Below are positions 40,988 to 61,300 of a stretch of 64,000 nt of DNA, one piece after another. The notes under the pieces are model-generated. The model saw nothing but the letters and a program-made list of their open reading frames with translations. It was not told where the DNA came from and ran no database searches. The translations under genes were made by a program, and so were the position numbers. The stretch lies in contig JAFLBV010000002.1 of assembly GCA_017302895.1 (NCBI GenBank), forward strand, positions 496,001 through 560,000, given 5' to 3'. This stretch comes from Ignavibacteria bacterium (GTDB lineage Bacteria > Bacteroidota > Ignavibacteria > Ignavibacteriales > Ignavibacteriaceae). Within the stretch, counting starts at the first letter, position 1, and each line of letters opens with the position of its first letter.

Positions 40988-41093
40988 ACGCTTATCAATA
41001 GACTGTTCCTGGCATTGCTCCATCCTTCGTGGGCATAAAGGACTGTCAAACAACCCACTATTATTGATTTCTCATAAAGAGAAGAGGTTCAAA

Positions 41094-43292: not shown

Positions 43293-43315
43293 TTTAAAAA
43301 AAAGAAAGTATTATC

Positions 43316-43660
43316 ATGAAAAAGCAATTATTTCACGTATTGTTCGTATTCCTGACCGTTAGTGGATTAGCCCTTGCTCAGGAAAAACCAGACTCGACCA
43401 AATCAAAGGCATGTACTACAGAAAAATCGGATTGTTGTGATTCGACGGTAGCAAAAACGGCAGAAGTGCCGACTACTCCATGGAATACAGTTTGCCCGGT
43501 TATGGGAAACAAGGTAAATCCTAAAATAAAGCTCGAAGTCTACAACGGAAAAGCCTATGGTTTCTGCTGCGCAGGTTGTGATGCCAAATTCGCAAAAGAC
43601 CCGGAGAAATATTCAAAAAATCTGAATGAGGCCGGAACCCGTTTCATCGGTAAAAAGTAA
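43316..43660 (+). CDS. Exported YHS-domain protein
   Basis: A 114-residue protein. A signal peptide (to about 22, ALAQ) and a Cys-containing linker (CTTEKSDCCDS) precede a YHS domain. The domain shows CPVMGNKVNP (Cys60), YNGKAYGFCCAGC (Cys84, Cys85, Cys88) and KDPEKYSKNL. YHS domains bind metals, often copper or iron, in periplasmic and membrane metal proteins. It follows the TonB receptor by 23 nt, so co-transcription is likely. Confidence 0.85.
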   Translation: MKKQLFHVLFVFLTVSGLALAQEKPDSTKSKACTTEKSDCCDSTVAKTAEVPTTPWNTVCPVMGNKVNPKIKLEVYNGKAYGFCCAGCDAKFAKDPEKYSKNLNEAGTRFIGKK

Positions 43661-43758: not shown

Positions 43759-45255
43759 ATGCCGGGTTTTATGTTCAGAGTTATCCAGCTTTTTATTTTT
43801 ATATTCATACTCACCTCCACATCATATTCTCAGATTGATCCGGGTGCAAGAGGTCAGTACCCACAAGGGTGGTTTAGTCAGACCATTTCCCGTGAGGGGA
43901 GGAATATGAACTGCAGAATTTATTACCCCTCCTTTTCAGACGGTGAAAACAGCCAGATCGACACTGTTAACGGTCCCTGGCCAATAGTGGCATTTGGACA
44001 CGGCTTTTTCATGCAGACAAACTACTACCTCTCACTATTCAGACAACTCGCCTCTCACGGATTCATCGTTATTGCTCCTCAGTTTACAGATACACAACAC
44101 GGAGAACTCGGAAAAGACCTTATCTTCTGTCTGAATTTCATCAAATCATCTTCCACAGTCCCAGGTAACAGATTTTACAAACTCGCCGACACTTCAAAAA
44201 CGGGTGTCTCAGGACATTCAATGGGAGGTGGGGCCTCTCTGTTGTCCACAATCTATGACTCGACTATAACGATTTCTGCACCGTTTGCCGCTGCCGAAAC
44301 TGTACCGTCAATTATTTCGACCATTAATTCAACCAAATCGATTATCTACCTGATCTCCTCACAAAACGACGGAATCACTCCACCCGCAACAACTCAGATT
44401 CCAATGTATGAGAATACACCTGACAATAAGGCACTCCTCACGATCAAGGGTGGTAACCACACGAAATTTATGGATACTAATATTTGGGATTGGACTGATG
44501 CAGGTGGATATATTAACAGAAATCTCCAAATCTATCTTTCGCAAAAGTATTTGACTGCTGTTTTAAAACTGTTCCTGCATGAAGATAAAAGCTATTGGAA
44601 TTATGCCTTTGGTGATTCTGTAAATGCTGATACTTCCATTGTTTTAAGGAAATCGGTGAATCGACTTCCATTAAAATCATTTAAATTGCTAACCGAAGAG
44701 GGATCGGTAACCAACCAAAACATTTATATCAGGTGGGAGAAATCTTCGACACTGAATCCTCTCGAGAACATCAGATACAATGTGGAATTTGCACTTGATT
44801 CACTGTTTGAATCACTTTTTTATGTTTCGCCTGCTGTAGCGGATTCCTCTATTATTATCGATTCCATCCCCCCGGGAGATCTTTATGTACGGATTGTCGC
44901 TTCGACCCCCGGCGGGATTCAAAAGTTCAGCAATAATTCGATCAAACTGACACTTTCACCTCCATTATCTGTGGCAGATGGTTCTCCTGATTTGAGTACA
45001 CTTAGAATTTCCGGTGTTTTCCCCAATCCATTTAATCCAGCATTCTCCATCACCATCGATAATCAGAATACGACAGATATTCTTTTTGAGTTGTATGATA
45101 TCAGCGGAAAAAGGATTTTATCATCTGAAAAAGTAATTTATCCCGGCATTTCAAAAGAGTACTTCGATCTTTCAGGTAATCCATCGGGTATCTATTTCCT
45201 GTCGGTCAGAGTTGAAGGAAGGTCGTTTGTTAAAAAAGTAGTGCTACAGAAGTAA
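43759..45255 (+). CDS. Secreted alpha/beta hydrolase (chlorophyllase/PAF-hydrolase-like) with T9SS domain
   Basis: A 498-residue exported protein. After a signal peptide (to about 24) the hydrolase covers about 30-280. Its elements are VAFGHGFFMQTNYYL, the nucleophile elbow SGHSMGGGAS, the acid in SSQNDGITPP and the His in GGNHTKF. This layout resembles chlorophyllase-like and PAF-acetylhydrolase-like lipases/esterases. Residues 300 to about 415 form a beta-rich linker, and the last 79 residues are a T9SS domain (VFPNPFNPAF). The ATG at 43759 is favoured, but one at 43771 is possible. Confidence 0.82.
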   Translation: MPGFMFRVIQLFIFIFILTSTSYSQIDPGARGQYPQGWFSQTISREGRNMNCRIYYPSFSDGENSQIDTVNGPWPIVAFGHGFFMQTNYYLSLFRQLASHGFIVIAPQFTDTQHGELGKDLIFCLNFIKSSSTVPGNRFYKLADTSKTGVSGHSMGGGASLLSTIYDSTITISAPFAAAETVPSIISTINSTKSIIYLISSQNDGITPPATTQIPMYENTPDNKALLTIKGGNHTKFMDTNIWDWTDAGGYINRNLQIYLSQKYLTAVLKLFLHEDKSYWNYAFGDSVNADTSIVLRKSVNRLPLKSFKLLTEEGSVTNQNIYIRWEKSSTLNPLENIRYNVEFALDSLFESLFYVSPAVADSSIIIDSIPPGDLYVRIVASTPGGIQKFSNNSIKLTLSPPLSVADGSPDLSTLRISGVFPNPFNPAFSITIDNQNTTDILFELYDISGKRILSSEKVIYPGISKEYFDLSGNPSGIYFLSVRVEGRSFVKKVVLQK

Positions 45256-45659: not shown

Positions 45660-47699
45660 TCATTTGTTCAGGATCAATTTGATGGTCTTCATCACATCGT
45701 TAAATGTTAAGCGCAAAAAGTAGATTCCGGAAGAGAGACTGCCACTTTGGAAAGTTAGAGAATGTTGTCCGGCGGTGATCTCTTCACAGAATAGTCTTCT
45801 GATCAACAACCCGCGAATATCAAACAATTCCAGTTTCATCTCCCCTGCTCTACCGGCTTCATAAACGATTTTAGTGGAATAAGTGAATGGATTTGGAAAG
45901 GCAGTCACCTTCAGGTTGTCTTTTTCTGAATTATTTTGGGCCTCGAAGATTCCTTCCGGTTTGACTCCGGTGGGATCAGCAGTTACAAATCTTTTTTGGG
46001 CGAGGTTGTATCCCCGTCCGTAGTTATTGGAAGCGGAAATTCTGAATGAATTAAGTGCAACCACCTGTCTCGGACCGGTACTGCTCGAAGCCCTGTACAC
46101 CGATGAGTCCCGAAGTGAAGCTTCTGTTGCATCAATTAAAAAAAACGGAAATCGTGAAAAGACAATTGAGGAGTCAGCAATAATGAATTTTGTTATGCCA
46201 TTTCCATTGCTGTAAATCCCGAGGGGTACCTGCGACTTAAAAATTGACCACAGTACGGATGCCATCCTGTTTTCATAATAATCGCTGTTTGCGAAAGTGA
46301 GTGATTGAATTGAAAATCCCGGTAAAACCCTAAAACCCTCATTTAATGTCATCTTACCGCGGTACGCAGCATACGGATCACTGTTCAAATTGTCAGCAAA
46401 AGAAGTCGAGGCAAGTTTTGACATTTCACCGAAATAGAAAGATGGACATCGGGAGTTAATCAATTTTTGTCGAAGCAGATTACCAACCAAAGAAGTCGAT
46501 GAAGTGATGTTTTTAATGGCTGTAAGGTCATCACCGGCAAAAATGAATGCCGAAGCTCCCAGTATTTTCTGATGGACCAGAGTATCAGTCTCGGATCCTG
46601 GAGTATAGAGTATCAGTTTAGCCAAGGGTGCATAAGCTGCAACTTCGTTAAGAATCGAATTTGCTTTTGCCTCATAGGCAGGATATGAGACAATTAAAAC
46701 ATCCGGAGTATTCGCCCTTGATACAAATGCTGAAAGCGCAGCCAGCCACGATGTTGCAACCCAGTTACTCCCCGTCAATGTCACATCTCCTGTCGGGGTT
46801 TCAGATAATGTCGCATTAAATGCTTTTGCTGAGGCAGGTACAAAACTGATATTTTTACTGTTAAGATCATAAACCCAGTTTTTTGTAAGCTGCCGGGCAT
46901 GAAGATTTTCGAGTTCGTACAGATTTCCAGACGACCAGAGTCTTGTAAGGGAATCCGCCCGATAAATAGAAACAGAACCACTTCCCATCACCACCCCTTT
47001 TCCATCGGGTGAGATACAAAAAGCGGTTCTGTCATCCAAACCAACGCCTGTAACATTTTGAATTCCCTGCAATCCAAGTTTGAGAAGGACAGATGCAAGT
47101 CGCGCCTGCCGTCCTCTTTCGATAAAATGAGTATCAAAAATAACATCCGGAACCAGGCCGAGAAAGTTGTCTTCAATGTTTGAAGTCTGTATGAAAGGAT
47201 TTACAAGTGCATCATCGGGATAAAGCGAACCATATCTCGCCGAGAGTATAAATTTCCCGAGCACCATTGCTCCTGCGGAAGTGCCTGATACAACTCCTCC
47301 CCGGGCATAAACCTGCTTTATGGCAGATTCAACGAGAGTACCTTTCCAGTAATTTATGTAATTGTACTGGTCGCCACCCTTGATAAAAACAGCAGATGCT
47401 GCGAGAATTGAATCTGCAACGGATTGTGTATTCGCTAATGTTCTGGAGTTTATTTTGAGATTGTATGAGGAACGGGAGCCCAGTGAACGGAAATAGTCGG
47501 GTATCCATGAAGTCTCGTCATTGACTGAAAGTACAACAACTGCACCTGAATCAGCTTTCTGAACTATCCATGAATAAGGTTCGCGGTTCCAGTCATTTAC
47601 ACCCTCGCCACCACCACCGACTGCACAGATATAACCCTGAGAGAACAACTGAAGCGAGCACGCTATCATCAACAAAACCAACCAGTTAGCGCCTCTCAT
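45660..47699 (-). CDS. Secreted cyanophycinase-like S51 peptidase with a degenerate second copy and T9SS domain
   Basis: A 679-residue exported protein. After the signal peptide, residues about 22-245 are a full S51 domain: FIKGGDQY, the nucleophile Ser141 in SGTSAGAMVL, His190 in FDTHFIERGRQARL, and VGLDDRTAF. Residues about 332-560 repeat the plan in weak form: FIFAGDD (384-390), YFGEMS (421-426) where GTSAG should be, YENRMASVLW for the His block, and GNGITKFII for the last. The last 80 residues are a T9SS domain (AFPNPFTYST). S51 enzymes include cyanophycinase and dipeptidase E, so it may cut beta-Asp or Asp peptides outside the cell. Confidence 0.85.
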   Translation of the reverse strand: MRGANWLVLLMIACSLQLFSQGYICAVGGGGEGVNDWNREPYSWIVQKADSGAVVVLSVNDETSWIPDYFRSLGSRSSYNLKINSRTLANTQSVADSILAASAVFIKGGDQYNYINYWKGTLVESAIKQVYARGGVVSGTSAGAMVLGKFILSARYGSLYPDDALVNPFIQTSNIEDNFLGLVPDVIFDTHFIERGRQARLASVLLKLGLQGIQNVTGVGLDDRTAFCISPDGKGVVMGSGSVSIYRADSLTRLWSSGNLYELENLHARQLTKNWVYDLNSKNISFVPASAKAFNATLSETPTGDVTLTGSNWVATSWLAALSAFVSRANTPDVLIVSYPAYEAKANSILNEVAAYAPLAKLILYTPGSETDTLVHQKILGASAFIFAGDDLTAIKNITSSTSLVGNLLRQKLINSRCPSFYFGEMSKLASTSFADNLNSDPYAAYRGKMTLNEGFRVLPGFSIQSLTFANSDYYENRMASVLWSIFKSQVPLGIYSNGNGITKFIIADSSIVFSRFPFFLIDATEASLRDSSVYRASSSTGPRQVVALNSFRISASNNYGRGYNLAQKRFVTADPTGVKPEGIFEAQNNSEKDNLKVTAFPNPFTYSTKIVYEAGRAGEMKLELFDIRGLLIRRLFCEEITAGQHSLTFQSGSLSSGIYFLRLTFNDVMKTIKLILNK

Positions 47700-47725
47700 C
47701 TCATTCTCTCAGGGTATAATTAGAA

Positions 47726-48718
47726 CTAAAACCTTAACCCGACGGAAATCCTTTGGACATTTGGAAGGATATCGTAAATGGAATAAGCATAATCAAACGA
47801 AACGACAGATTCTCCCAAAGGCAGGTTTGCTCCGGCTCCGAAAGTTATCTTTTCATCATCATAATTATATCTGTAACCGCCTCTCAGAAACACCCTGTCA
47901 AATACCGAGATCTCGGTACCAAAATTTACTCTTTCGAGGTTGTCATTCGGGTGTGTTACATCAAGGGCGGCACGCATCTTAACGAAATCAATTTTGAAGA
48001 TGTCCATCGCTATACCAACCTGAAAGTGAAGCGGAAGCGAGAAATCTTCTGTGCCGAGTTTCGCGGGTGCAAGTCTCGAAAGCGGTATGTTCTCGTCCCT
48101 CAAGTAGGTAACATTCAAGTCGGGTCCGTCAAATCTCATGTCAGGTCCAAAATTTGTCATGCTCATTGCAATTGTCAGATTTTGGAAATCGAGAGTATAT
48201 TGAGTTCCGATGTCGAAAGCTATACCTGTTGCTGTTTCATTCCAGATTCTTTGAGATACATACTTGACTGTGATACCGGTTCTGAACCTGTCAGTTATAG
48301 CCCGGGAATAAGTCAAACCAAGAGCAATATCCTGTGCATCGTAAAACCGTCCTGTTCCGTTTGGTTTCTTTTCAGTCGTAATCTCTATTTTACCTGTTGA
48401 AAAAGAGATAAAATGAACACCCAAAACACCCGCATCACCTCCAAGTTTGTAGGCTCCGGCTGCAGCGTTCAGGTCGAATAACCCGAACCAGTTCAGATTC
48501 GTGAAATGAAAATCAACATTGGAAACGCTTGAGAGTCCTGCCGGATTCCAAAATATGGATGAGGCATCATCGGTTAGAGCAATCGAAGCACCACCCATTG
48601 CCGCCTGTCTTGCTCCAAGTGGAATCTGCAGAAATTGTGCACCTGATGTCCCAAGATTGGAATACTGCGCAGCGAGAGTAAACGACATTAAGATTGAGAT
48701 AAATATCAGTTTTTTCAT
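47726..48718 (-). CDS. PorV/PorQ-family outer-membrane protein
   Basis: A 330-residue barrel with signal peptide. The N-terminal segment FLQIPLGARQAAMGGASIAL, followed by DDASSIFWNPAGLSSV, is the hallmark of the PorV/PorQ family. PorV helps release and attach T9SS cargo. The barrel ends in SVGLRF. It lies between the large T9SS protein (15-nt gap) and the S51 gene, so it may be a shuttle or attachment partner for this locus. The specific PorV role is inferred; many paralogues exist. Confidence 0.88.
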   Translation of the reverse strand: MKKLIFISILMSFTLAAQYSNLGTSGAQFLQIPLGARQAAMGGASIALTDDASSIFWNPAGLSSVSNVDFHFTNLNWFGLFDLNAAAGAYKLGGDAGVLGVHFISFSTGKIEITTEKKPNGTGRFYDAQDIALGLTYSRAITDRFRTGITVKYVSQRIWNETATGIAFDIGTQYTLDFQNLTIAMSMTNFGPDMRFDGPDLNVTYLRDENIPLSRLAPAKLGTEDFSLPLHFQVGIAMDIFKIDFVKMRAALDVTHPNDNLERVNFGTEISVFDRVFLRGGYRYNYDDEKITFGAGANLPLGESVVSFDYAYSIYDILPNVQRISVGLRF

Positions 48719-48733
48719 TTTATGCTCCGTTGA

Positions 48734-51592
48734 TCACTTGATTACGGCGAAGCGGTCGATGAACTCGCCTCCGCTGGTTTTTACAACATATATGTACATT
48801 CCGGCTGAAATCTCTCTTCCACCCTCGGAACGGAGATCCCACACCTCTGTACCGTTGGATGAAGAATGATTAATCGTCTTGACCAGATCGGCATCAATCG
48901 TGAAGATATGAATTGTACATTCAGGTGGCAGATTGATGAATTGTATCTGACGAAGCGGTTCACGCCGCAATTCACCAAACTCAGGTTCATACAATGATGA
49001 GACCACATACGGATTTGGTACAACTCTTATTTTGTTCAACGATGTATTGGCGACTTCATTATTTACCACAGGGGCTCTGAATGTAAATGCATATTTGTCT
49101 TTTAGTGTCGGTGCCTTTGGTTTTACTGTCTCCAGAGAATAAAGATTGCCCGCCTGTGGAGGGTTGGCAGGATTAAATTCTATCCGGCCCCTCACACCAC
49201 CAAATGTAAATGTTGACAGAGTGTAAACGGTATCAAACTTCACTATTGCTGAATTTGTTGAAGTGTCTTTTATCTCCAGTGAAACAAATCCCGCTCCACC
49301 TGTTCCGAATCCTCTGTTTTTCACTTCAACGAAATATAGAGTGGATTTCAGATTCACTTCATTTTCAAGTGAAAAACCGAGTGAAAAGATATCGGTCCCG
49401 CCTATTTTCGAAAGGGATTTTACGGCACCGGGTTTTGTCATACTGAATACAATACCATCAGAAGTTGCCTGAGTTTTCTCAAACAAAAACGGTCTTGGCT
49501 TAATCAGTGTATCATTATCCTTTGTGGCGTACACACCAAAACTGAGCGTAAGCAAGTCACCCTTTCTCGGTAAATACTCGGGAGCAGTACCGGGAGGTGT
49601 AACTATTCTGATCCTCAACCCTGTTCCGGGGACTGAAATAATCTGATTAGGGTTTGTCCAGACATAGCTGTTATCAGTTTTTATATCTTCCCCGGTTGTG
49701 AGATTAACAAAATCGAATACAGTCGGCGACTTGAAGTAAACACCGTATTTTTCCGGTTTCGTGTTTGCCGAGTCAGTGATCACCGGAACGAGCTGTGTTT
49801 TCAGGACACCTCTTTCTGTCCTGCTGACATAATTGAATCCGACATTATACTCGCCTGAAGCAAGTTTTACATCATCGACCGGAGTCACATTGAATACATA
49901 ATTTGAAGTGCCTTTTCCGATTTGTCTGATATTATCAAGAGTAACCGGCGTTCTGCCTGCAGCCGATGAGACAGGAGTAAGACTGACAATGTTTAACTGA
50001 TCAAGATTCTTCCCGAGCGGACTTTCAAGCGGCTCAAGAAGAGAATCACCTCTGTCGTACGCGGTGATAGTGTACCAGTATTCAAAACCGTTTGTTACAG
50101 TTGAGTCGATAAAAGAATATTGTATCCCTTTGTCGATACCTATCTCATTTGGAACATCGAATTCGGCTAATTTTGTCCACTGGATTCCTTTATCAATACT
50201 TCTGTAGAGTCTGTAACCTTCGAAATCATACTGACCTGAAAATGAATCAAATGACCTTTCTGCAGCATCATCCCAGTAAAGCATGGTTTTGTTGTCACTT
50301 GGGACACCCGAAAGTTTTGGCGTAACAGGTGGTTTTGCAATATCATAGTTAAATGAATGAATTACCTGTGCCTGAGCAAGAGCTGTTTTCAACTCATTCA
50401 GGTTTTCTCCTGCCACAAGTACCGTATAAAATGAGAGTGTGTCTCCCCTTTTAATGAAATAAGGACCCGAAGAAAAAGTCGTCAACAGATCCAAACCGGA
50501 TGCTGGTATGGTAGAAACATCATCATAGTTCAGTGAGGTGTTGTTTCCAAGGTGGAAGTACTTGTTCCTCAGGTTGGAGTTGTAAAGCGAAGGTGCTGAT
50601 GTCATTCGACCGAAAAGGACGGAGTCGAGATCGGAAAGTTCATCATCATCATAGAGTGCATAATGGAAATCGGTAAGTCCAAGTTCACTCCCGTTTACTT
50701 TGGGAGTCTGAAGAAATGCAACACCCATCATACCTGTTTTGCCGTTAGGCCATTCTGCAGAAACCCCGTCATCATAGAACCATACAAAATTATTGCTTTT
50801 GTCGAAATCTATTTTATCGTCAGCATATTCAGGATCACCACCTGAAACATTACCAACATCAATATCAGTATAGAGTGTAAAAAAGAGACTGTCGTAATCT
50901 TTGGGTCCGTTGTTTATGATATCATATTTAAAAAAGAGCAGATTCTGCGCAAATTTAACTCCATATGCATATCCGGTTTGTGCGAGGGTGATGCCGAGTA
51001 TCTGCTTTGTGTTATTGGAATCGTTATAAACACAATATGAATCCTGATCCGATTTGAAGACCGGATTACCATTCGCATCCTTCACAGGCCAACCTTTTAC
51101 GGGGTGCCACGAAGCAGGATTATCGGAGAAGGCAATTCTGGCACCTTCATTATTGTGATAACCGGAAGCAGCCTCCCACTCCTCATTGGTTGTGTATCTT
51201 CCTTGAATAACATTTCCGGGGATTCCCACATAAGGATTCATCCTGTAGATGTAGTGCTTTCCGCTGTTGATTGGAAACTCGCCGGAGGGACCTTGTGAAA
51301 GCCTTCTCGGATAGAGTTTTCCTCGGTTTTCGAAGAAGAGCCCGATGGCTGATGCGTTATGCACACCTCCGGCTCTGTCCCGAATGGAAAGTACCGAGTT
51401 ATCTCCTCCCCCCGCCTTTTTGGTCTGGGTGTGAAGAAGCGGTGATGCAAGCAAAAAGAATACAAGTACCAGAAGAGCTTTGCCTGACATTGAAAAAACG
51501 GGTTTGTTATTCATCAATTTATTCTGTCTTTCGATTTCCGAGTGTTTTACCGGTTTCATGAATTTTGATGTCATTTCTTTTGTAAATTTCAT
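48734..51592 (-). CDS. Large T9SS-dependent surface protein
   Basis: A 952-residue exported protein. The signal segment (SGKALLVLVFFLLASPLLHTQ) is preceded by about 36 residues, an unusually long N-region. The ATG at 51592 has GGGAG eight bases upstream, whereas an internal ATG at codon 27 has a poorer site. Residues about 60-460 are beta-rich with no family I can name. A fibronectin-III-like stretch (about 460-560, YDFEGYRLYRSIDKGIQW then WYTITAYDRGDS) follows. The last 90-100 residues are a T9SS-type domain (VVPNPYV, then SAGMYIYVVKTSGGEF). It follows the TonB receptor by 17 nt, so it may be its surface partner. Confidence 0.78.
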   Translation of the reverse strand: MKFTKEMTSKFMKPVKHSEIERQNKLMNNKPVFSMSGKALLVLVFFLLASPLLHTQTKKAGGGDNSVLSIRDRAGGVHNASAIGLFFENRGKLYPRRLSQGPSGEFPINSGKHYIYRMNPYVGIPGNVIQGRYTTNEEWEAASGYHNNEGARIAFSDNPASWHPVKGWPVKDANGNPVFKSDQDSYCVYNDSNNTKQILGITLAQTGYAYGVKFAQNLLFFKYDIINNGPKDYDSLFFTLYTDIDVGNVSGGDPEYADDKIDFDKSNNFVWFYDDGVSAEWPNGKTGMMGVAFLQTPKVNGSELGLTDFHYALYDDDELSDLDSVLFGRMTSAPSLYNSNLRNKYFHLGNNTSLNYDDVSTIPASGLDLLTTFSSGPYFIKRGDTLSFYTVLVAGENLNELKTALAQAQVIHSFNYDIAKPPVTPKLSGVPSDNKTMLYWDDAAERSFDSFSGQYDFEGYRLYRSIDKGIQWTKLAEFDVPNEIGIDKGIQYSFIDSTVTNGFEYWYTITAYDRGDSLLEPLESPLGKNLDQLNIVSLTPVSSAAGRTPVTLDNIRQIGKGTSNYVFNVTPVDDVKLASGEYNVGFNYVSRTERGVLKTQLVPVITDSANTKPEKYGVYFKSPTVFDFVNLTTGEDIKTDNSYVWTNPNQIISVPGTGLRIRIVTPPGTAPEYLPRKGDLLTLSFGVYATKDNDTLIKPRPFLFEKTQATSDGIVFSMTKPGAVKSLSKIGGTDIFSLGFSLENEVNLKSTLYFVEVKNRGFGTGGAGFVSLEIKDTSTNSAIVKFDTVYTLSTFTFGGVRGRIEFNPANPPQAGNLYSLETVKPKAPTLKDKYAFTFRAPVVNNEVANTSLNKIRVVPNPYVVSSLYEPEFGELRREPLRQIQFINLPPECTIHIFTIDADLVKTINHSSSNGTEVWDLRSEGGREISAGMYIYVVKTSGGEFIDRFAVIK

Positions 51593-51609
51593 TGTTTATT
51601 CTCCCTCAC

Positions 51610-54066
51610 TTAAAATCTTAAAGTAGCCCCAAGACGGATTCGCCTCGGTGCCCCGTAATTTGAAGGATCTTCCATGTATTCTTTCGAGTGACCACCTACA
51701 TATGTGAAGTCGGGCTCTCCTGTATCGGGATAAACATAAACGATGTTTCTGTTATCTGTCAGGTTAAGTATCTCGGCAAAAAGACGCAGACGGATATTAT
51801 TGAATATCGTTACATCTTTTCCGATAAGCAGATCCATCGACCAGGTTGAAGGCTGTCTTAACGAATTCTTCACAACAAAACCGACATCTCTTCCCGAAGG
51901 TGTATAGGGATAACCCGAAGACCATGAAAATATGAATGAGAAATCCATATTTTCAAACCATGGTGAACCAAACACCTTTGGACCTTCACCATTTGGTATG
52001 GTGAATGATGCTGTTCCGTTAATCACATGCGTTTTGTCGAAATCCAGATAATAAAGGAGTGTGGATTCCGAAGTGCCGGGGTACTGTTCTGTTTCTGAGG
52101 AAGCACTTCCCTTTGCAACTGAATATGTGTAAGTCAAACCACCGGAGAAGTATTTGTCGGGTCTGATATCCAGATTTACTTCAAATCCTTTCATGTTGGC
52201 ATAGTCTTCGTTCACATAGAGAGTGTAACCGACATATCTGCCCTCAGTAAAGGGGAAGAAATAGCGGGTTCCAATCAGTCCGGTTACATCCTTATAATAT
52301 GCAGTAACAGAAACTGCAGCCCGGTCAGAGAACTGATGCGAAACACCCACTTCATAAGCAATCGTGCGTTGAGCATCAAGATCAGGCTGACCAAACAACG
52401 GTTCCCTTACCTGGATATCATATTGCTTGTTCTGGAAAAGGAACTGATACTCGGGATTCTGGAAGAAGTGGCCGTATGCGAAATGCAGCTTTGTCTTATC
52501 GGAGATCGGATGAGCAATACCAATTCTTGGACTGAACTGTGAACGCGATTTCACCTTTACCACTGATGCAGGATCAAGAGGATTTGCCCTGAACTCCACA
52601 TTTGCATTCATAAAATCATAACGGAGTCCGAGATTGATTACCAAATATGCAAGTTCAATTTTGTCCTGTACATAAGTGGCAATTTCGAAAGGAGATGTTG
52701 TATAATTGTTCTTGTAAGGGAAATTTCTCTTTGGATCCTCGATACTGTAAAGCATCAGGTTGTGAGTCTTGAACTGGGCACCAAACTTCACTTCATTGTT
52801 GTTATTTATCTGCCAGACTGCATCACCTTTAAAATCGAGTGTTGTGGTCCTGCTGTCTGTAAGCACGGTCGGATCAGCGAGAGCATAAAACTCGAATCCG
52901 TTTCCTGCGTTTGACTGATACACTCTTGAACTCACAGGCAGATACTGCGATGTGTCTTTGTCAAGTCCGGAGTAGAATCCCTGATTGAAATACGAAAATC
53001 TTATATCATAGAATAAGGACTGGCTTACAGTATGAGTGGCAGTCAGTGCAGATTGCCAACTGTCGGTCCTTCTCTTTAAATACTGTTCCGGTATATACTT
53101 ATAGTCGTGATTGTAGCTCTGTCTCAATCCTCTGCTGCCTCTGTTAGAAATCGTCAGCCTGAACTGTGGAATTGCTGTCAGAGTCAGTTTCGTAAAAAAT
53201 GACTGGGCATTGTTATATCCGAATGGAAGATAACTTCCCTCATTCAACTGCTCACCCGAAAGGAAAAACCTTAGTGCATTAGGAATTATAGCCCCTTCAA
53301 GGCTTCCGCTTATTCTTAATTCATTCAATTTTGAATATCTCTCAACCCCAAAATTGGAAGACCGCACTTCAAGTTTTCCGGAAAACTTGTCTGCACCATC
53401 CCTGGTTACAATATTTACAACGCCACTGAGCGCATTCCCGTATTCTGCATTAAATGTTCCCGAAAGAAGGCTCATCTCCTGTATAGCATCATTATTTATT
53501 TGGGTCGCCAGACCTCCCAGTAACGGATCAGTAACATACATTCCATCGATCATGTAGGCAACTTCATTTGATCTCCCGCCTCTGATATGGAGATTGTTTC
53601 CACTTCCCACAACACCTGCCTGAAGTGCGAGCAGATCACTAAAATTACCAACAGGTAACAATTCAATTTCATCCCGTCCAACCACAGAAATGGAACTTGT
53701 AAGATCTTTTTGGATAAGAGGAGTATTCGCGGTAACTACAACTTCATCAGTTGTCATCGAAACAGGTTTCAATTTGAAGTCGATGGTTGTGGTCTGATCA
53801 ACCACAATCTTTACTCCCTCGAAGGTGAGGTGCTCATAACCTACATAGGTGATTTTTATCCTGTATACTCCCGGAGGAACATTCAAGATCACAAATCTGC
53901 CGTCCGTATCGGTCGAGGCTCCGAGTTTTGTACCCTCAATTACGATGGTGGCTGAGATTAACGGCTCTCCGGTGATGGCATCCGTAACCCTTCCTGCCAG
54001 CTTCCCGGTAATTCCGGCTTGTACGACAGGGACTAAAAACAATAGAAAAAGAATAAATCTTTTCAT
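51610..54066 (-). CDS. TonB-dependent receptor with CarboxypepD_reg domain
   Basis: An 818-residue outer-membrane receptor. Signal peptide to about 17, CarboxypepD_reg domain about 20-105 (GKLAGRVTDAITGEPLISA, VPPGVYRIKITYVGY), plug with LLALQAGVV and LHIRGGRSNEVAYMIDGMYV, then a large barrel ending in RIRLGATLRF. The ribosome-binding site GAGGAAATC is good. It sits 9 nt after rpiR. The plug has no SusC-specific signature. Import of peptides is inferred from the neighbouring peptidases and is not visible in the receptor itself. Confidence 0.93.
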   Translation of the reverse strand: MKRFILFLLFLVPVVQAGITGKLAGRVTDAITGEPLISATIVIEGTKLGASTDTDGRFVILNVPPGVYRIKITYVGYEHLTFEGVKIVVDQTTTIDFKLKPVSMTTDEVVVTANTPLIQKDLTSSISVVGRDEIELLPVGNFSDLLALQAGVVGSGNNLHIRGGRSNEVAYMIDGMYVTDPLLGGLATQINNDAIQEMSLLSGTFNAEYGNALSGVVNIVTRDGADKFSGKLEVRSSNFGVERYSKLNELRISGSLEGAIIPNALRFFLSGEQLNEGSYLPFGYNNAQSFFTKLTLTAIPQFRLTISNRGSRGLRQSYNHDYKYIPEQYLKRRTDSWQSALTATHTVSQSLFYDIRFSYFNQGFYSGLDKDTSQYLPVSSRVYQSNAGNGFEFYALADPTVLTDSRTTTLDFKGDAVWQINNNNEVKFGAQFKTHNLMLYSIEDPKRNFPYKNNYTTSPFEIATYVQDKIELAYLVINLGLRYDFMNANVEFRANPLDPASVVKVKSRSQFSPRIGIAHPISDKTKLHFAYGHFFQNPEYQFLFQNKQYDIQVREPLFGQPDLDAQRTIAYEVGVSHQFSDRAAVSVTAYYKDVTGLIGTRYFFPFTEGRYVGYTLYVNEDYANMKGFEVNLDIRPDKYFSGGLTYTYSVAKGSASSETEQYPGTSESTLLYYLDFDKTHVINGTASFTIPNGEGPKVFGSPWFENMDFSFIFSWSSGYPYTPSGRDVGFVVKNSLRQPSTWSMDLLIGKDVTIFNNIRLRLFAEILNLTDNRNIVYVYPDTGEPDFTYVGGHSKEYMEDPSNYGAPRRIRLGATLRF

Positions 54067-54075
54067 GATTTCCTC

Positions 54076-54930
54076 TTATTGGTTGATGAGGCGGCCTTGT
54101 TCAATTTCATTAAGTTTAAGCAACCAGTCCTTCGCTCTTTTTTTGTTAAGCCTTGCGGCTTCAGTGGTCAGAGCATTAATAAGGACAGAAATGGCTGCGA
54201 AAGAATTGGTATATAGCATATTTTCCGATCTTACAGTGAGAGAAATATCGGAATACATTGCTGCGGGTGAGGTCGATTTGTTTGTAATAGAAATAACCTT
54301 TATGCCTCGCATTTTTGCGGATTTCGCAAGATCAATAGTCTCGACAGAGTATGGAGGGAACGAGAAAACAATCAGTACACCTTTTTGCGATATAAAAAGG
54401 CTCTCTTCCTGAAACGAAGCCCAGCCATTTCTGAAATTGCGGGCTTTTATTCCGATCTGAGTGAGCTGATAACCCAACACTTCAGCCAGAAGATAGGATA
54501 TCCCCATACCTGCTGTAAAAACTTCGTCAGCACCCGAAAGGAGTGAAACAGCCGAGGAGAATTTCTCCCGGTCTATCAAATGAAGTGTTTCGTTAATGTT
54601 TTTTATGTCGAGGTTGGCTACCTCTGTCAGGGTGTTTTTATCACCGTCTTCCATCTCTATCAATGGAAAAAGGTCTTTGTTGCTGTTTATTTCAGTCTGT
54701 AGAAGTTCTGAAATTTCATCTCTTATTTCCGAAAAACCCGAAAAACCGAGATTCTGGGCAAATCTTACTATCGAGGCGACAGAGACATGAGAACTCCCGG
54801 ATATCTCCTGCACGCTCAAAAAAGGTATCCGGTCAAAGTTAATCAGAAAAAAATCGGCAATTTTCTTCTGATTCTTTGGGAGAGAGTTATACCTCTCCTC
54901 TATCAGCTCTTTTAACTGGCGGTAACGCAT
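54076..54930 (-). CDS. MurR/RpiR-family transcriptional regulator
   Basis: A 284-residue regulator. Residues 1 to about 75 are the HTH_6 domain (LPKNQKKIADFFLINFD, then HVSVASIVRFAQNLGFSGFSE), and about 120-260 a SIS domain (GADEVFTAGMGISYLLAEVLG, FSFPPYSVETIDLAKSAKMRG). SIS domains usually sense phosphosugars, but the ligand here may be something else. It lies inside the operon it probably controls, between two T9SS-related genes. A hairpin lies just upstream. Confidence 0.9.
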   Translation of the reverse strand: MRYRQLKELIEERYNSLPKNQKKIADFFLINFDRIPFLSVQEISGSSHVSVASIVRFAQNLGFSGFSEIRDEISELLQTEINSNKDLFPLIEMEDGDKNTLTEVANLDIKNINETLHLIDREKFSSAVSLLSGADEVFTAGMGISYLLAEVLGYQLTQIGIKARNFRNGWASFQEESLFISQKGVLIVFSFPPYSVETIDLAKSAKMRGIKVISITNKSTSPAAMYSDISLTVRSENMLYTNSFAAISVLINALTTEAARLNKKRAKDWLLKLNEIEQGRLINQ

Positions 54931-54950
54931 AGTCGTGGTTCAGAGGAGAA

Positions 54951-54988
54951 AGTGACGGGTTCAGGAATATCGATTCCGGCCCGCCACT
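54951..54988 (-). repeat. Imperfect hairpin in an operon gap
   Basis: Nested pairings AGTG/CACT, GGG/CCC and GGAAT/ATTCC form a 38-nt hairpin with a 4-nt loop (ATCG). It is in the 74-nt gap between the T9SS protein and rpiR. The leftward side has only a weak U-tract, so it could be an RNA-processing or partial-termination element. Confidence 0.45.
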
Positions 54989-55004
54989 CTTCGCTCGTCA
55001 CTCT

Positions 55005-56114
55005 TTACTTGCTTAAAATCATTTTGTTTGTTATTACGGTTGCCCCTGATCTCAAAGTGTAGAAATAGACTCCACTTGAAAGTTTTGAAGCATCAAAATT
55101 GACCGACTGTCTGCCGGCATTCTGATATCCGTTAACAAGTTCTGCCACTTTATTACCGAGCAGATCGTATACTGAAAGATTTACATTCGATGCCTGTGGT
55201 ACATCAAAAACTATCTTTGTTGATGGGTTGAAAGGATTTGGATAGTTCTGGTACATCTTGTAATCAGTGATTGAAGCAACAGGAGTTTCATCCAAAATGC
55301 CTGTCAACTGGTTGTATTTTGCGGTAGCAGAGTCGATGTTAGCATTCATTTCCAAAGAATCGAGTCCAACTGCTATAGCGATGTACATGACGGTTGAATC
55401 ATTTGGATTTGTAGCTACAGGTGAGGTTCCAAAAACTGCTGTTCCACCGTCAATTCCTGCCCAATGAAAATTCTCGTACTGACCGTCTGTCATCCATCTT
55501 GTAAGTGATGTATCAACATTGTATCCTTCATACCATTCGAAGTTGTGAGCCGAAGGCACCTGAAGATTCAATATTTTCAAACCGAAATAATTCGTTTTAC
55601 TGAAACTGAAAAGCCTTTTTGCCGGGTCGTATGTCATTATTTCGTTTCCGTAGGCACCTTCAACCTGAGGAATCATTTCGAGTCCGAATCTTCCCTGGTA
55701 GGCAGCGGTTTCCTGACTTTTTACCGTATACTTTACGATCGTATATCCTTTGTTTGCCCAGCCGTACATGTGAACATCAGCTTTGAGAAGTGGTGATTGA
55801 TTTGAATAGTCACTGTTTATCCTCGAAGCGAGTTCCACATCACCCCATGTTGGGTTGTCAACTGTATCAGGGAGTATTTCGTCGTCGGCATCCTCGAGAT
55901 AATCAAATGTTGCGGTATCCTGCATGTTGTAAAGCAATGATGCACGATCCAACTGACGAACATATGCGCCGTTGTTCATCATACCGATTCTCACTCTACC
56001 GTAGGTGCGGAGCGTAAGTTCGATCTTTCCTGACTGGTAAACGGCATTCTGTGCTGCAACATCAAAAAGCATGATTGCAACTAAAAAAGCAGAAAAAAGT
56101 AATGTTTTTTTCAT
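55005..56114 (-). CDS. Secreted protein with T9SS sorting domain
   Basis: A 369-residue exported protein. The signal peptide ends at about 21 (DVAAQ). The middle (about 25-285) is beta-rich with no domain I recognise; it includes GKIELTLRTYGRVRIGMMNNG and PLLKADVHMYGWANKGY. The last 80 residues (290-369) are a T9SS domain with NYPNPFNPST and SSGVYFYTLRS. The ATG at 56114 is preferred because GGAG lies seven bases ahead; an ATG 12 nt upstream is less likely. It is 19 nt after the S51 gene. Confidence 0.8.
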   Translation of the reverse strand: MKKTLLFSAFLVAIMLFDVAAQNAVYQSGKIELTLRTYGRVRIGMMNNGAYVRQLDRASLLYNMQDTATFDYLEDADDEILPDTVDNPTWGDVELASRINSDYSNQSPLLKADVHMYGWANKGYTIVKYTVKSQETAAYQGRFGLEMIPQVEGAYGNEIMTYDPAKRLFSFSKTNYFGLKILNLQVPSAHNFEWYEGYNVDTSLTRWMTDGQYENFHWAGIDGGTAVFGTSPVATNPNDSTVMYIAIAVGLDSLEMNANIDSATAKYNQLTGILDETPVASITDYKMYQNYPNPFNPSTKIVFDVPQASNVNLSVYDLLGNKVAELVNGYQNAGRQSVNFDASKLSSGVYFYTLRSGATVITNKMILSK

Positions 56115-56133
56115 GGGTAACTCCATTATTTGG

Positions 56134-56982
56134 TTATTTAGATAAAACTTTTCTGGTCTTCATGTCATATCTGTCACCATCCATTAAAAGATGCATTGTG
56201 ATGTCTGTGGCTGAAACCATTCCGTTTTTATTTTCTTTTTTTCTTTTACCTTTTGTCGGATCGATTACAAGAACCCCGCTCTCGCCTACTACCGTAAAAT
56301 ATCTCCCTTTATCAACAAGAATTGCTGTGGATTCATCAATTCCGATTCCGGGAAGTTTATGTTCTATGGTCGTGGTGATAAGCCGGTTCTGTCTTTTTCT
56401 TACAAGGAAATGCTGGTCGATAATTACATCTGTCAAAAAGCCAAATCCTTCTGTAGTCTCAACATTTTTTGCGTGAACAGTGAAAAAACTCAGCGTTGAG
56501 TCTTTCACAATCAGTTCCTCACCCGTTATCATTACTTTACTCATTACTGCAGCCCCTGCAGATGTGCCGCCGATTATTCCACCATTGTTATAAATTGCTT
56601 TTATCTTGTCGATGAATTTACTGTTCCCGACTTCTTTAAAAAGTTTTGCCTGATCACCGCCTGAGAAAAACACCCCGGTTACTCCGTCAAGCTCCGCAAG
56701 ATTCTGAGGAGAATCAACTTCCGCTCTCCCAAAATATAATGCCTTAACATTTTTACATCCAAGCTTTACAAATTCGGTGCTGTGATCCCATGCTTCATCC
56801 TTCGGAACAGAACTTGCATTCGGTACAATAACAATTTTCGCATCATATCCACCCGCCAATTCAATAAATTTCTTCATCATATATTCGGGACGGGATCCAC
56901 CGCCAATTATAAGGAGCTTACCTTTTGGTTGCGGAAGAAGAACGAAACTGAACAACACACATAAAATTAAAAGTTTTTTCAT
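56134..56982 (-). CDS. Exported cyanophycinase-like S51 peptidase
   Basis: A 282-residue S51 serine peptidase with a signal peptide (to about 18). Single-domain layout: FFSGGDQAKLF, nucleophile Ser141 in GGTSAGAAVMS, His191 in IDQHFLVRKRQNRL and GIGIDESTAILV. The DQHF...R block is the same as in cyanophycinase and its relatives, which cleave Asp-linked peptides from the chain end. Its start overlaps the M20 peptidase stop by 4 nt. Substrate preference is not proven by sequence. Confidence 0.88.
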   Translation of the reverse strand: MKKLLILCVLFSFVLLPQPKGKLLIIGGGSRPEYMMKKFIELAGGYDAKIVIVPNASSVPKDEAWDHSTEFVKLGCKNVKALYFGRAEVDSPQNLAELDGVTGVFFSGGDQAKLFKEVGNSKFIDKIKAIYNNGGIIGGTSAGAAVMSKVMITGEELIVKDSTLSFFTVHAKNVETTEGFGFLTDVIIDQHFLVRKRQNRLITTTIEHKLPGIGIDESTAILVDKGRYFTVVGESGVLVIDPTKGKRKKENKNGMVSATDITMHLLMDGDRYDMKTRKVLSK

Positions 56983-58085
56983 TTTTTCCTCACCAGATTT
57001 AATCCAATTTTTGCGGCTGCCATAAAGTCGTCAATTAACACAAATTCATCATTTGCATGAGGATTTTGAGCGCCAATTCCAATGTTCACTGATGGAATAC
57101 CAAGTCCGTTGAATGAATTGGCATCACTTCCACCAAAAGAGATTACAGGTTTAGCTTCCATCCCCGATTCTTCAATCGCCTTGTAAATCATTTTGTATGC
57201 CAGATGATCGGGTGAAAGTTCATAAGGAGTAAAATCTTCGTATGTGTCAATCTTGATAGTGGCTCCGGCATTGAAAACTTCCGTACCGAAAGTATCCAGC
57301 ACCCTCTCGAGTTCTTCGTCAAGACGGTCAGGTTTGAATGAACGGACCTCCCCGGTCAGAACAACTTTCTCCGGTACAACATTTACTGCAGTACCACCGG
57401 AGATTATACCAATGTTCATGGTGGTGTCTTCATCCAGCCGTCCCTGTTTCAGTTTTGAAATAGCGGCTGCTGCAATGGCAATGGCATTAATTCCGGCCTC
57501 TGGAGCTATTCCTGAATGAGAAGCCTTCCCGAAGATTTCAATTGTAAAAGTTTTTGAACCGGGAGCTCTGAAAACAAACTTCCCGGGGAGATGGGATGAA
57601 TCAAATACCAGACCCGCCTCCACCCATTTTGGAACCTGCAGATTCTTTGACCCTCCGAGAGTGGTCTCTTCGCATGTCGTGAACACCACTGTAAAATCAT
57701 CAATCTCGGGGTTGTTTTCAGCTATTTCCAGTAGGTAAAGAAGAATAGCCATCCCCTGACGGTTATCAGCACCCAGTATCGTTTTTCCATCGGAAGAAAT
57801 CTTTCCTGTTTTTTCATCAATAACAACTTTTATCCCTGCCGTTGTTCGTGCCGTATCCATGTGGGAGGTCAGCATCATCTTCCCGCCCTTTCCCCGCTTT
57901 ATAATAATATTACCTGAGTTGCTGCCTGTCGCACTTTTGGAATTGTCTTCCGAAATCACAACTTGTTTGCCGGCGAGAAATTCTCTGACAAAATCGGCAA
58001 CCGGTTTCTCGTTTTGAGATAATGCATCAATTTTTACAAGAGATGTAAATATCTCTATCAGTCTGTTTTTGTCTATTGTAATCAT
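56979..58085 (-). CDS. M20/PepT-like metallopeptidase
   Basis: A 368-residue cytoplasmic peptidase with no signal. The dinuclear zinc set is visible: SHMDTA, GADNRQGMAIL, TCEETTLGG and FDSSHLPG. ASHSGIAPEAGINAI is the lid/dimerisation region. Relatives are PepT-like tri- or dipeptidases. It is the first gene of the leftward eight-gene run, and likely finishes the breakdown of short peptides brought in by the other components. Confidence 0.9.
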   Translation of the reverse strand: MITIDKNRLIEIFTSLVKIDALSQNEKPVADFVREFLAGKQVVISEDNSKSATGSNSGNIIIKRGKGGKMMLTSHMDTARTTAGIKVVIDEKTGKISSDGKTILGADNRQGMAILLYLLEIAENNPEIDDFTVVFTTCEETTLGGSKNLQVPKWVEAGLVFDSSHLPGKFVFRAPGSKTFTIEIFGKASHSGIAPEAGINAIAIAAAAISKLKQGRLDEDTTMNIGIISGGTAVNVVPEKVVLTGEVRSFKPDRLDEELERVLDTFGTEVFNAGATIKIDTYEDFTPYELSPDHLAYKMIYKAIEESGMEAKPVISFGGSDANSFNGLGIPSVNIGIGAQNPHANDEFVLIDDFMAAAKIGLNLVRKK

Positions 58086-58121: not shown

Positions 58122-58150
58122 AAGTTACGAAATAAATATTTCACAGTCAA
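58122..58150 (-). promoter_or_regulatory. Candidate promoter of the peptide locus
   Basis: On the minus strand TTGACT (complement of 58145-58150) is followed by a 17-nt spacer and TAACTT (complement of 58122-58127). It is about 37 nt before the M20 start and has the sigma-70 style -35/-10 layout. It would drive the eight-gene run. Assigned by eye. Confidence 0.4.
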
Positions 58151-58307: not shown

Positions 58308-61300
58308 ATGAAAAAGCTGTTTACAGGAATTTTGCTTTGCTTGTGCATAAGCTCAGTCTATCCACAAAATGCAATCTTCAACAGTCCCTTTCCCGATGAT
58401 GACATCAAACGGCTGCACGGAGAAGTTGTTGACTTTGGCAATAATGAGATGTATGCTCTCTGGTCGAAGTTCGAATCAACCGGCAGAATTCAGTTTTTTA
58501 TGCGAAAGAGTACCGACGGCGGTAATCAGTGGCAAAATGAAGAAACTGTTTTTGATACCGTTATAAACGGTAGTATGGAAGATGCGTGGCGTGGTGCGCA
58601 CCTCATAAAAGGAAACAACAACAGATTGCTCCTTTTCATCAAGACGGGGTCGAGCAGGCATACAATCTACAAGTATTCCGATGACGGTGGAGTTACCTGG
58701 ACTCCAAACATTCGTATAATAATAGCGAATGGTACTTTCACAAGTCAGGCATACAGAATATTCTCAGTTGTCCACTTGGGCGAAGGGAAACTTATCCTTA
58801 CGAGCTCCAACTCAACAAGTCTTACAGGCACTGTCAGAAGTTCGGACAATGGCACAACCTGGCAAAACCTTGTTTCAACAGGATTTTCGCTGTTCATGAA
58901 TCCTTCTCTACTGAGTATCGGGAATGGCAGTTTCTATATGGCAGCTCAGCAAACTGCCGCCACATCAAGTAAAAGAATCTTTTTTGTCAAATATATTTCT
59001 ACAAATACCTGGCAGGATACCGTTATTGTCCACGAAGACACTTCAGCATCTCTTGCACTCCCCCGTTTGTTCAGGAACTCAAACAACGATCTTTATATCT
59101 TCTTCTCAAAGAGTGTAAAAGTTTTTGGGAAATACTCCCGCACTAATATCTTTTACTCCAAAAGCAGCAACGAAGGTGCAACATGGGGAACCCCGGTTCA
59201 GGTTACAAAATATCCGGGTGTTGATGCAAACCTGAACCTTAATTCACAATCCGTCAAACCCTTCATAACATTCTCAAGTGACAGGAACAACCTTCAAGGT
59301 GCCAAAAAATTGTTCTGGACAAATGCACTTGAACTCCAGGATAATTCAACTCCACCCGTTATTTACGACTATGAGGCGAATTCCGCGTCCGTAACTGCCG
59401 GAGATACGATTAAAATTAAAGTTTTTACGGGATCGGAATCCCCTGTTACAGAGGCAAAAATTACAGGATACTTGAACGATCTCCCTTATAACCTGCAACT
59501 ATTCGATGACGGAAACCATAACGATTCGCTGGCAGGAGACAAAATATTTGGAAATTTCATAAGGGTTGCTCAGGAGGGTGATCTGCTAAGATATTCTGTC
59601 TCAGTGCAAAATGCCTTTGGTACTTCAACCACTGCACAAAATATCATAGCTTGTCCTTTCAGTGACCTCCCAAGCAGTGCAGAATTGAAAACCGGGCGTC
59701 TAATCGTTCCATTTGACTATAACGGCACAATTGCGGATGTTGCAACTGCTTCGGGATCCGGATTGAAGTTTGATTCAGTGATGACCATTTTTTCCCAGGG
59801 CTTTTTGCTTTCGGGGCTGATAGAATCAAATGTCTGGGCTGCAGGTGAATTTAGCGCTTCAAGAATTAAGGATTTCAGAGCAGGACAGGTTGGTTACCCT
59901 GCAAACGATCCCAGAAATGGAATCTATAGAGTTGCACTCACAGATACCGCATTTGGAACTTCATGGCAACGATGGAAAGGTGCTGTATCCCTCGGTGCGA
60001 AATTCTGGGACGGAAACAACAATAACATCTATGACCCTGTCGATCTTAATCAAAACGGAAACTGGGAACCAAATGAAGATATGCCCGAAATTTTGGGAGA
60101 GGTATCTTATTTTACCGTTTTTAATGATGGTGTACCTTCAGCGTTAAGAAGATTTTTGGAGGAACCTAAAGGAATCGAAATAAGACAAACTCTTTATGCG
60201 TTCCCGAATTCAGATGCTCCGGCAATGAGAGATGCTGTATTTATAAGGTATGAAATGACTAAAAAAGGAAATGTTTCGCCTGCAATCCGTGACTTCATTT
60301 TCGGAATTCAAAGCGATCCTGACCTGGGTGATGCCAATGACGATCTCGTGGCTACTGATACACTAAGAAATTCCGTTGTTTGTTACAACGAATCTGCTGA
60401 CCCGTTATTTGGAGAGAACCCACCGGCAATCTATAATACCATGCTGTTTGGAAATCCGGTTTATATCCCCGGAGTCAGTTTTACTGATCTCAATAACAAC
60501 GGTACTTTTGAAAACGGAATTGATATCCCTCTCGATACGGCAGTCCTTCCGATGGGCAAACCTTTCAATAACATTCTTTATCCCGGAGCAATAAACAGCG
60601 GAATGAGAGTATCACAACACTATATACAGTCGCACCCGACGCATGGTGATCCGAATACTCCAGTGGATGTAAGGAACTACCACATCGGTAAAAATTTGAC
60701 AGGGCAATATCTCGATCCGTGTACCTGGACTTTCGGTGATGTAAGAGGAGGTGTGAATTGCAGTTTGGTCAATCCAATTTTTGTTTACTCTGGAGATCCA
60801 GTATTGAATAAAGGGTGGATTAATAATACCGGTTTAGATCAAAGAACCACTCTCGCAAGTTACATGTCACCTCTCGATGAACAAACAACTCTCACATACC
60901 ACACAGCTATAATCGTCGGAAGAGGGAACTCACCTCTCAACTCTATCACAGTAACTCAGGCAAATGTTGACACCATTTTTTCGAGAATGGGAGCCCGTTA
61001 TAATTTTATACCTGTTTCAACCAAAGAACCGGGCACGGGAATCCCGGGAGTGTATGAATTAAACCAAAATTACCCGAATCCCTTTAATCCGAATACAATT
61101 ATCACATTCAGCATACCCGAAAACGCACATATATCATTAAAAGTATATGACAACACCGGAGCTTTGGTGAAAACTCTGTTAAATGAAGAGTTGAGCCCCG
61201 GCAAACATTCAGTATCTTTTGACGCAGGTAAACTTTCGAGCGGTGTCTATTTCTACAGAATTGAATCTGAGAAATTCACCCAAACCCGAAAAATGCTTCT

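Follow-up and report, generated by a model that had tools for sequence, protein, structure and literature searches.

An eight-gene run of an Ignavibacteria bacterium predicted to scavenge cyanophycin, with an M20 peptidase as candidate isoaspartyl dipeptidase

The eight-gene run, its M20 peptidase and its S51 proteins

A stretch of 64,000 nucleotides (nt) from an Ignavibacteria bacterium (assembly GCA_017302895.1, contig JAFLBV010000002.1, positions 496,001 to 560,000; hereafter the window) contains a run of eight minus-strand open reading frames (ORFs) at 45660-58085 which resembles a locus for scavenging cyanophycin, a nitrogen-storage polymer of microbes. From right to left the run encodes an M20 peptidase, an S51 protein of the cyanophycinase family, a 373-residue protein tagged for the type IX secretion system (T9SS), an RpiR-type regulator, a TonB-dependent receptor, a 952-residue surface protein, an outer-membrane barrel and a second, 679-residue S51 protein. 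A leftward run of eight genes had been described in an original prediction made from the sequence alone, and all eight ORFs were found. The spacings, from the M20 gene downwards, are -4 (an overlap), 7, 74, 9, 17, 15 and 26 nt, in agreement with the earlier description of gaps mostly under 30 nt, with 74 nt as the single larger spacing. The flanking genes at 43759-45255 and 58308-61310 are both oppositely oriented, and the run therefore has clear borders. The earlier family assignments (M20, S51 twice, RpiR and TonB receptor) were confirmed with Pfam and NCBIfam, M20 together with M20_dimer. As had also been noted, none of the eight genes was found to belong to a known isoaspartyl dipeptidase family.

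The M20 gene (56979..58085, minus strand) encodes a PepT-like protein of 368 residues, without a signal peptide by eye, which has the M20 and dimerisation domains and the metal ligands that define peptidase family M20. Residues H75, D77, D107, E139, E140, D162 and H343 were invariant in 19 sequences and include what we take to be the metal ligands and the general base. With respect to the two known dipeptidases, IadA (TIGR01975) and IaaA (PF01112), no homology to either family was found among the Pfam matches or the best 25 of 52 NCBIfam matches of the protein; we propose that it is a functional analogue of these enzymes and not a homologue.

The adjoining gene (56134..56982, minus strand), which shares its first 4 nt with the end of the M20 gene, encodes a protein of 282 residues which scores 172.3 bits with TIGR02069, over the curated cut-off of 126.6. 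Its best PDB matches are cyanophycinases (7uqv, 2.7e-33; 3en0, 2.9e-25). The protein was aligned to 3en0. The motifs GGDQ, GTSAG (S141) and DQHF (D189-F192), together with R195, R197 and R200, were conserved in 14 sequences, with the serine, GGDQ and DQHF invariant. Judged from its sequence, the protein is a member of the cyanophycinase family with a signal-like N-terminus, and is probably exported.

The last gene of the run (45660..47699, minus strand) encodes the T9SS-tagged S51 protein of 679 residues (Por_Secre_tail 29 bits). This protein scored 52 bits with Pfam S51 (cut-off 23.9) and 88.4 bits with TIGR02069, below the cut-off of 126.6, and was filed as a member of the S51 family only. 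Its first domain was modelled with a cyanophycinase fold (Z 29.1 and root-mean-square deviation 2.0 over 248 residues against 7uqv, Z 27.9 against 3en0), the protein model having a mean pLDDT (predicted local distance difference test score) of 74. The middle part, which the fold comparison barely covered, matched the cyanophycinase profile by hhalign (93% probability, E 3.4e-7) and the protein's own first domain at only 47%; it seems by eye to be without the serine motif and is probably a degenerate second S51 domain. The layout of the protein is then a cyanophycinase-fold domain, this probable degenerate domain and a C-terminal sorting domain.

Conservation in relatives and the dipeptidase position

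Of 97 related genomes, counting that of the window, 37 carry the cyanophycinase gene or a relative of it, and 30 of the 37 also gave a second S51 match. Among 45 stretches, 15 (window included) preserve the complete set of eight genes in the arrangement seen in the window; many of the others are cut by contig ends or hold the second S51 gene alone. An order unique to this strain would, according to the original prediction, have refuted it, and this is not what was found; the order is kept across diverged genomes, mostly at 35-70% protein identity, and the TonB receptor is 62-71% identical in many syntenic relatives. A chance neighbourhood of the eight genes was rejected on the basis of this synteny. 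A hydrophobic N-terminus was found in 48 of 50 scored cyanophycinases from M20 loci without CphA1 and in 0 of 26 which were linked to CphA1, with 36 of 207 rows left unscored.

Most relatives carry an extra DcuC/YfcC-type gene between the cyanophycinase and 373-residue genes. Three of these were tested and gave 350-375 bits with Pfam DcuC and 374-413 bits with NCBIfam YfcC, below the latter's cut-off of 500. The YfcC gene was located within 10 kb in 28 of 36 related cyanophycinase stretches, and in one genome (G010) it adjoins the M20 gene on the opposite strand. The one YfcC gene of the window's genome (C2:1034892-1036280) lies away from the run, and its product is 58% identical to a YfcC from one of the loci.

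An M20 match (E <= 1e-30) was found in 43 of the 97 genomes, among them 35 of the 37 with cyanophycinase. In the two cyanophycinase genomes without M20 (G064, G066), IaaA and CphA1 adjoin cyanophycinase. Eight genomes carry M20 and no cyanophycinase; seven of these hold only distant M20s (34-40% identity), and in the eighth (G059) the match is at 51% and lies in a short, possibly truncated ORF. In a further genome (G068) only 51 bases separate the end of the M20 gene from a contig end. No match over the TIGR01975 cut-off was found in any of the 97 genomes. Candidates for either known dipeptidase within the related stretches with M20 were sought and rejected, as PF01112-like genes occurred only in L049 and L050, which are of the CphA1 type, and in L073, which holds the second S51 gene only.

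The comparison was extended to named genomes, of which the best 80 of 584 loci were taken, a choice biased towards relatives of the window's cyanophycinase, and to a phylum sample. Using our own profiles, the named set gave M20 in 18 loci, IaaA/IadA in 16, both in 0 and neither in 46; its YfcC-containing loci comprised 16 with M20, 7 with IaaA/IadA, 3 with neither and 0 with both. In the phylum sample, 99 of 395 genomes had a TIGR02069 match at E <= 1e-20, and 100 loci were read which scored over the cut-off and lay outside the 97 relatives (three further places over the cut-off, namely G287:C1, with a long S51 protein of the second type, G432:C4 and G154, were omitted, as was everything below the cut-off); the 100 loci gave M20 in 9, IaaA/IadA in 52, both in 0 and neither in 39. 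After de-duplication, which kept 175 of 180 loci, 25 held M20, 68 held IaaA/IadA, 0 held both and 82 held neither (Fisher p 1.3e-6, related loci being treated as independent). With the relatives added there were 209 loci, with corresponding counts of 55, 70, 0 and 84. No locus held both kinds at any score threshold tried, and stricter IaaA/IadA thresholds gave 25 with M20, 44 with IaaA/IadA and 0 with both. Stretch L043, where M20 is apparently cut by the contig start, did not reach the 250-bit threshold and entered the counts among those with none. In the IadA profile, four seeds (L129, L170, L178, L181) were named by eye, and matches to this profile in G418, G315 and G181 were over the TIGR01975 cut-off; part of the IaaA rows reached only 172-183 bits.

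The M20 gene was on the strand of cyanophycinase in all 60 M20 loci and directly upstream of it in 58 of the 60 (loci not de-duplicated). A quick tree was made of 124 cyanophycinases, these being the rows out of 207 with a labelled dipeptidase; the M20 versus IaaA/IadA label requires 6 changes on it, at least 3 of which are forced by well-supported branches, and some long branches meet according to a program warning. On these observations, M20 and the two known dipeptidases take turns beside cyanophycinase.

Other arrangements were also seen. In Flavobacterium loci L155, L171, L173 and others, the place of a dipeptidase after cyanophycinase is taken by a conserved gene which codes for about 730 residues. 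In a Cryosericum locus (L112, 632-2688), the gene directly after cyanophycinase is a 393-residue ORF which by eye resembles a different M20-type amidohydrolase. Locus L189 (287-14556) holds the same set of receptor, surface protein, PorV, M20 and RpiR without cyanophycinase, alongside genes for an AbgT-type transporter and an M14 protein, and perhaps serves another amide or dipeptide substrate.

With respect to polymer synthesis, no match to TIGR02068 over the cut-off was found in the window's genome. The best candidate for CphA1 scored 113.5 bits against a cut-off of 850, aligned with the model in its C-terminal part alone and was rejected; it is probably a Mur ligase. As no cphA1 above the cut-off was present, scavenging fits better than storage. 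Two loci of the same class, L243 (1221-10188) and L249 (9096-16856), were found to combine cyanophycinase, two CphA-like genes, M20 and YfcC, and constitute a possible new polymer-making cluster. The L249 cyanophycinase scored 188.4 bits, and the CphA-like genes there scored 340-364 bits with TIGR02068 (cut-off 850) as partial model matches. The cyanophycinases of both loci are without a hydrophobic N-terminus. These two loci possibly place M20 beside polymer-making genes as well.

Receptor, surface proteins, regulator and neighbouring genes

The TonB-dependent receptor (51610..54066, minus strand; 818 residues) has an N-terminal CarboxypepD_reg domain followed by plug and barrel, and we propose the 952-residue protein (48734..51592, minus strand) as its binding partner. 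The T9SS label given earlier to the 952-residue protein is likely and falls short of certain, with a TIGR04183 score of 18.7 bits against a cut-off of 23; export by this route is probable. No Pfam match over the cut-off was found for this protein. Its structural model has low confidence in much of residues 1-200 and has an N-terminal domain like those of GH94, GH65 and GH116 enzymes (Z up to 18.1), a fold which we take to be the beta-supersandwich. Parts of this protein gave 14 matches in the genome (its own included), and because of the other matching genes the receptor, surface protein and barrel appear to be a module that can be reused.

The outer-membrane barrel (47726..48718, minus strand) had been called PorV-like. 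Membership of the PorV/PorQ family was borne out (NF033709 215.7 bits, cut-off 90), and identity with PorV itself was not, since the T9SS PorV model NF033710 gave 68 bits against a cut-off of 250. The 373-residue protein (55005..56126, minus strand) is, from its Por_Secre_tail match (47.5 bits) and synteny, a T9SS-tagged surface or secreted protein. In some relatives a second, similar gene adjoins it, and its profile weakly resembles that of the N-terminal region of the 952-residue protein.

The RpiR-type regulator (54076..54930, minus strand) contains the Pfam domains HTH_6 and SIS, and the usual phosphosugar loop is replaced by SFPPYS. At this loop the pattern S-[FIL]-x-P-Y-[ST] was present in all 58 aligned locus regulators (window included). 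The PDB relative 4ivn has SSSGST at this position; a further relative, 3sho, is also without SSSGST. No other match to the regulator was found in the genome at E <= 0.001. From the loop, the regulator appears unlikely to sense a phosphosugar and may respond to a non-phosphosugar ligand. Upstream of the M20 gene, the inverted repeat GAAATATTTATTTC (58129..58142, minus strand), in a stretch conserved in three congeners, is a candidate promoter or operator; it has one match in the window, and 11 of 100 shuffles gave at least one match.

On the plus strand, the gene at 43759-45255 encodes a T9SS-tagged alpha/beta hydrolase which passes the cut-offs of Pfam PETase (PET hydrolase-like, 63.1 bits) and chlorophyllase, and which is a candidate secreted polyester- or lipid-type hydrolase. 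It is preceded by a TonB-receptor-like ORF (41064-43660, plus strand), followed in turn by a small cysteine-rich exported protein, YHS-like by eye. Divergent to the run, 58308-61310 (plus strand) encodes a T9SS protein of 1000 residues with BNR (sialidase-type) repeats.

Proposed function, alternatives and comparison with known systems

We consider the run, with a probability of roughly 0.6, to be an operon which serves to scavenge cyanophycin, or an isoaspartyl-amide polymer much like it, made by other microbes. The computed basis comprises protein families, gene order, co-occurrence, positional replacement and the absence of cphA1 above the cut-off; from these, the substrate, localisation, every catalytic step and regulation are predicted. 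The T9SS-tagged S51 protein and the 952- and 373-residue surface proteins would bind and open the insoluble polymer outside the cell, and the TonB receptor would import soluble oligomers. In the periplasm, the exported cyanophycinase would degrade the oligomers to dipeptides, beta-Asp-Arg (or beta-Asp-Lys), which a YfcC-type carrier would take in. The M20 enzyme, proposed to be a cytoplasmic beta-aspartyl dipeptidase unrelated to IadA and IaaA, would split the dipeptides to Asp and Arg, and the RpiR-type regulator would sense a non-phosphosugar ligand, perhaps the dipeptide. The scavenging of a cyanophycin-like polymer had been suggested in the original prediction, and it gained support from the cyanophycinase score, synteny, YfcC, the absence of cphA1 above the cut-off and the position of M20. 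M20 is itself the leading candidate for the isoaspartyl dipeptidase which had not been seen in the original prediction. The stronger proposal, that M20 is a further, structurally unrelated beta-aspartyl dipeptidase which has been swapped with IadA/IaaA several times and is one of the "undiscovered" isoaspartyl dipeptidases of the Bacteroidota, and that the SIS regulator has been turned to an isoaspartyl dipeptide, is one on which we are evenly divided.

Several observations weigh against this interpretation. No inner-membrane transporter, YfcC included, is present in the run of the window, and YfcC is missing there in the window's genus. None of M20, IaaA and IadA is held by 82 of the 175 non-redundant loci, and the p-values ignore kinship. 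PF01112 (IaaA-type) genes unlinked to the locus are present in 83 of the 97 genomes, that of the window among them, and such genes occur in all 9 M20 genomes of the phylum sample; M20 need therefore not be the only dipeptidase, and its replacement of IaaA/IadA is shown for position and not for need. The M20 protein scores 231.9 bits with TIGR01883, under the cut-off of 274.25, and its nearest solved relatives, 3rza and 3gb0, are named tripeptidase and peptidase T. M20 relatives (38-40% identity) occur without cyanophycinase in L189, with its AbgT-type transporter and M14 gene, and in L191, with YfcC, which allows a broader dipeptidase role; G074 (L071) has M20 plus an M14 gene. Other signal-peptide scorings were less clean than the one reported above (40/47 versus 0/37, and 52/52 versus 12/45).

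Another possibility is that M20 cleaves alpha-peptides as an ordinary PepT-like peptidase, that an unlinked PF01112 enzyme cuts the isoaspartyl dipeptides and that the locus scavenges mixed peptides. The TIGR01883-like family and the PDB relatives called peptidase T, the PF01112 genes elsewhere and the loci with M20 and no cyanophycinase are all consistent with it. A general peptidase would, however, not be expected to avoid IaaA/IadA loci, and the mutual exclusion of the two kinds beside cyanophycinase, with M20 nearly always the direct upstream neighbour, makes this explanation an unlikely one. We hold in similarly low regard an architecture of the same kind directed at another polymer, with a non-arginine side chain or poly-aspartate from another source, whose matching isoaspartyl dipeptide M20 would cut. 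For both S51 proteins, 7uqv (titled pseudo-CphB) is a better match than the cyanophycinase of PCC6803, a preference by sequence which may only reflect phylogeny; one PDB match of M20, 7ljh, is named poly(aspartic acid) hydrolase; and in L243 and L249 M20 is paired with two CphA-like genes whose partial synthetase matches are far below the cut-off. Against another polymer stands the score of the 282-residue protein over the cyanophycinase cut-off.

It is highly improbable that the eight genes are chance neighbours or a sum of unrelated cassettes, with receptor, surface protein and PorV genes reused for other substrates. Several other genes in the genome do match parts of the 952-residue protein, and in some relatives (e.g. 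G001, G010, G070) the second S51 gene is located elsewhere, but the whole order recurs among diverged genomes as described above. Mobilisation of the cell's own cyanophycin is the most remote of the explanations, even though L243 and L249 combine CphA-like genes, cyanophycinase and M20, since this genome has no synthetase match above the cut-off, the cyanophycinase is probably exported, and the TonB receptor and T9SS proteins point outward.

For the isoaspartyl dipeptidases still missing from Firmicutes and Bacteroidota, M20 provides a concrete, directly testable candidate, one which can be found by neighbourhood in other genomes. Cyanophycin scavenging of this kind would also extend the use of cyanobacterial nitrogen stores to Ignavibacteria-like bacteria and to representatives of several further phyla, and the enzymes could serve to prepare or analyse beta-Asp-Arg dipeptides.

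The idea of a cyanophycin-scavenging locus is known; M20 in the dipeptidase position was not found in the literature searched. Scavenging clusters that have no cphA1 are described in the available text of PMC10206079, according to which the isoaspartyl dipeptidase(s) in Firmicutes and Bacteroidota are still undiscovered. No M20 isoaspartyl dipeptidase was found in the available cyanophycin and cyanophycinase literature, in which subscription journals are little covered; a search on poly-aspartate hydrolase returned nothing useful, and no paper was found on pseudo-cyanophycin. A TonB receptor beside cyanophycinase was reported in 2012 for Citromicrobium sp. JLT1363, with cyanophycin as the proposed substrate (PMC3400609); the receptor adjoins cyanophycinase as it does here, the phylum is different, and the available part of that report mentions no M20 or T9SS set.

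At the level of the enzymes, CphB (3en0, 7uqw) shares family, fold and the GGDQ, GTSAG and DQHF motifs with the 282-residue protein, which unlike CphB has a signal-like N-terminus; the second S51 protein differs by DTHF, an extra degenerate domain and the T9SS tag. The extracellular cyanophycinase CphE of Pseudomonas alcaligenes DIP1 (about 43.6 kDa, with a leader peptide; PMC3235067) is, by its description in the available text, likewise a secreted cyanophycin-degrading enzyme. PepT-like M20 proteins (TIGR01883; 3rza, 3gb0) have the same domain structure and metal ligands as the M20 protein of the run, which differs from them in scoring below the curated cut-off and in its linkage to cyanophycinase.

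At the level of the locus, a cyanophycin utilization locus is known from the cyanobacteria-scavenging Bacteroidetes strain L21-Spi-D4 (Ben Hania 2017, as cited in the available text of PMC10206079). The loci of this strain and of Flammeovirga pacifica WPAGA1 are alike, so far as the sources available describe them, in having cyanophycinase(s), a dipeptidase position, a transporter and no cphA1; in our own reading, L174, the locus of F. pacifica, brings together cyanophycinase, IaaA, YfcC and additional S51 genes within 10 kb. The run of the window shares with such utilization loci the cyanophycinase gene and the absence of cphA1 above the cut-off in the genome, and holds neither IadA/IaaA nor a transporter. 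Compared with L21-Spi-D4 and F. pacifica as described, it has M20 in place of IadA/IaaA, no locus transporter, and in addition the T9SS, PorV and 952-residue set and the RpiR-type regulator. Its gene content suggests that it may work like a cyanophycin utilization locus without being a strict member of that class.

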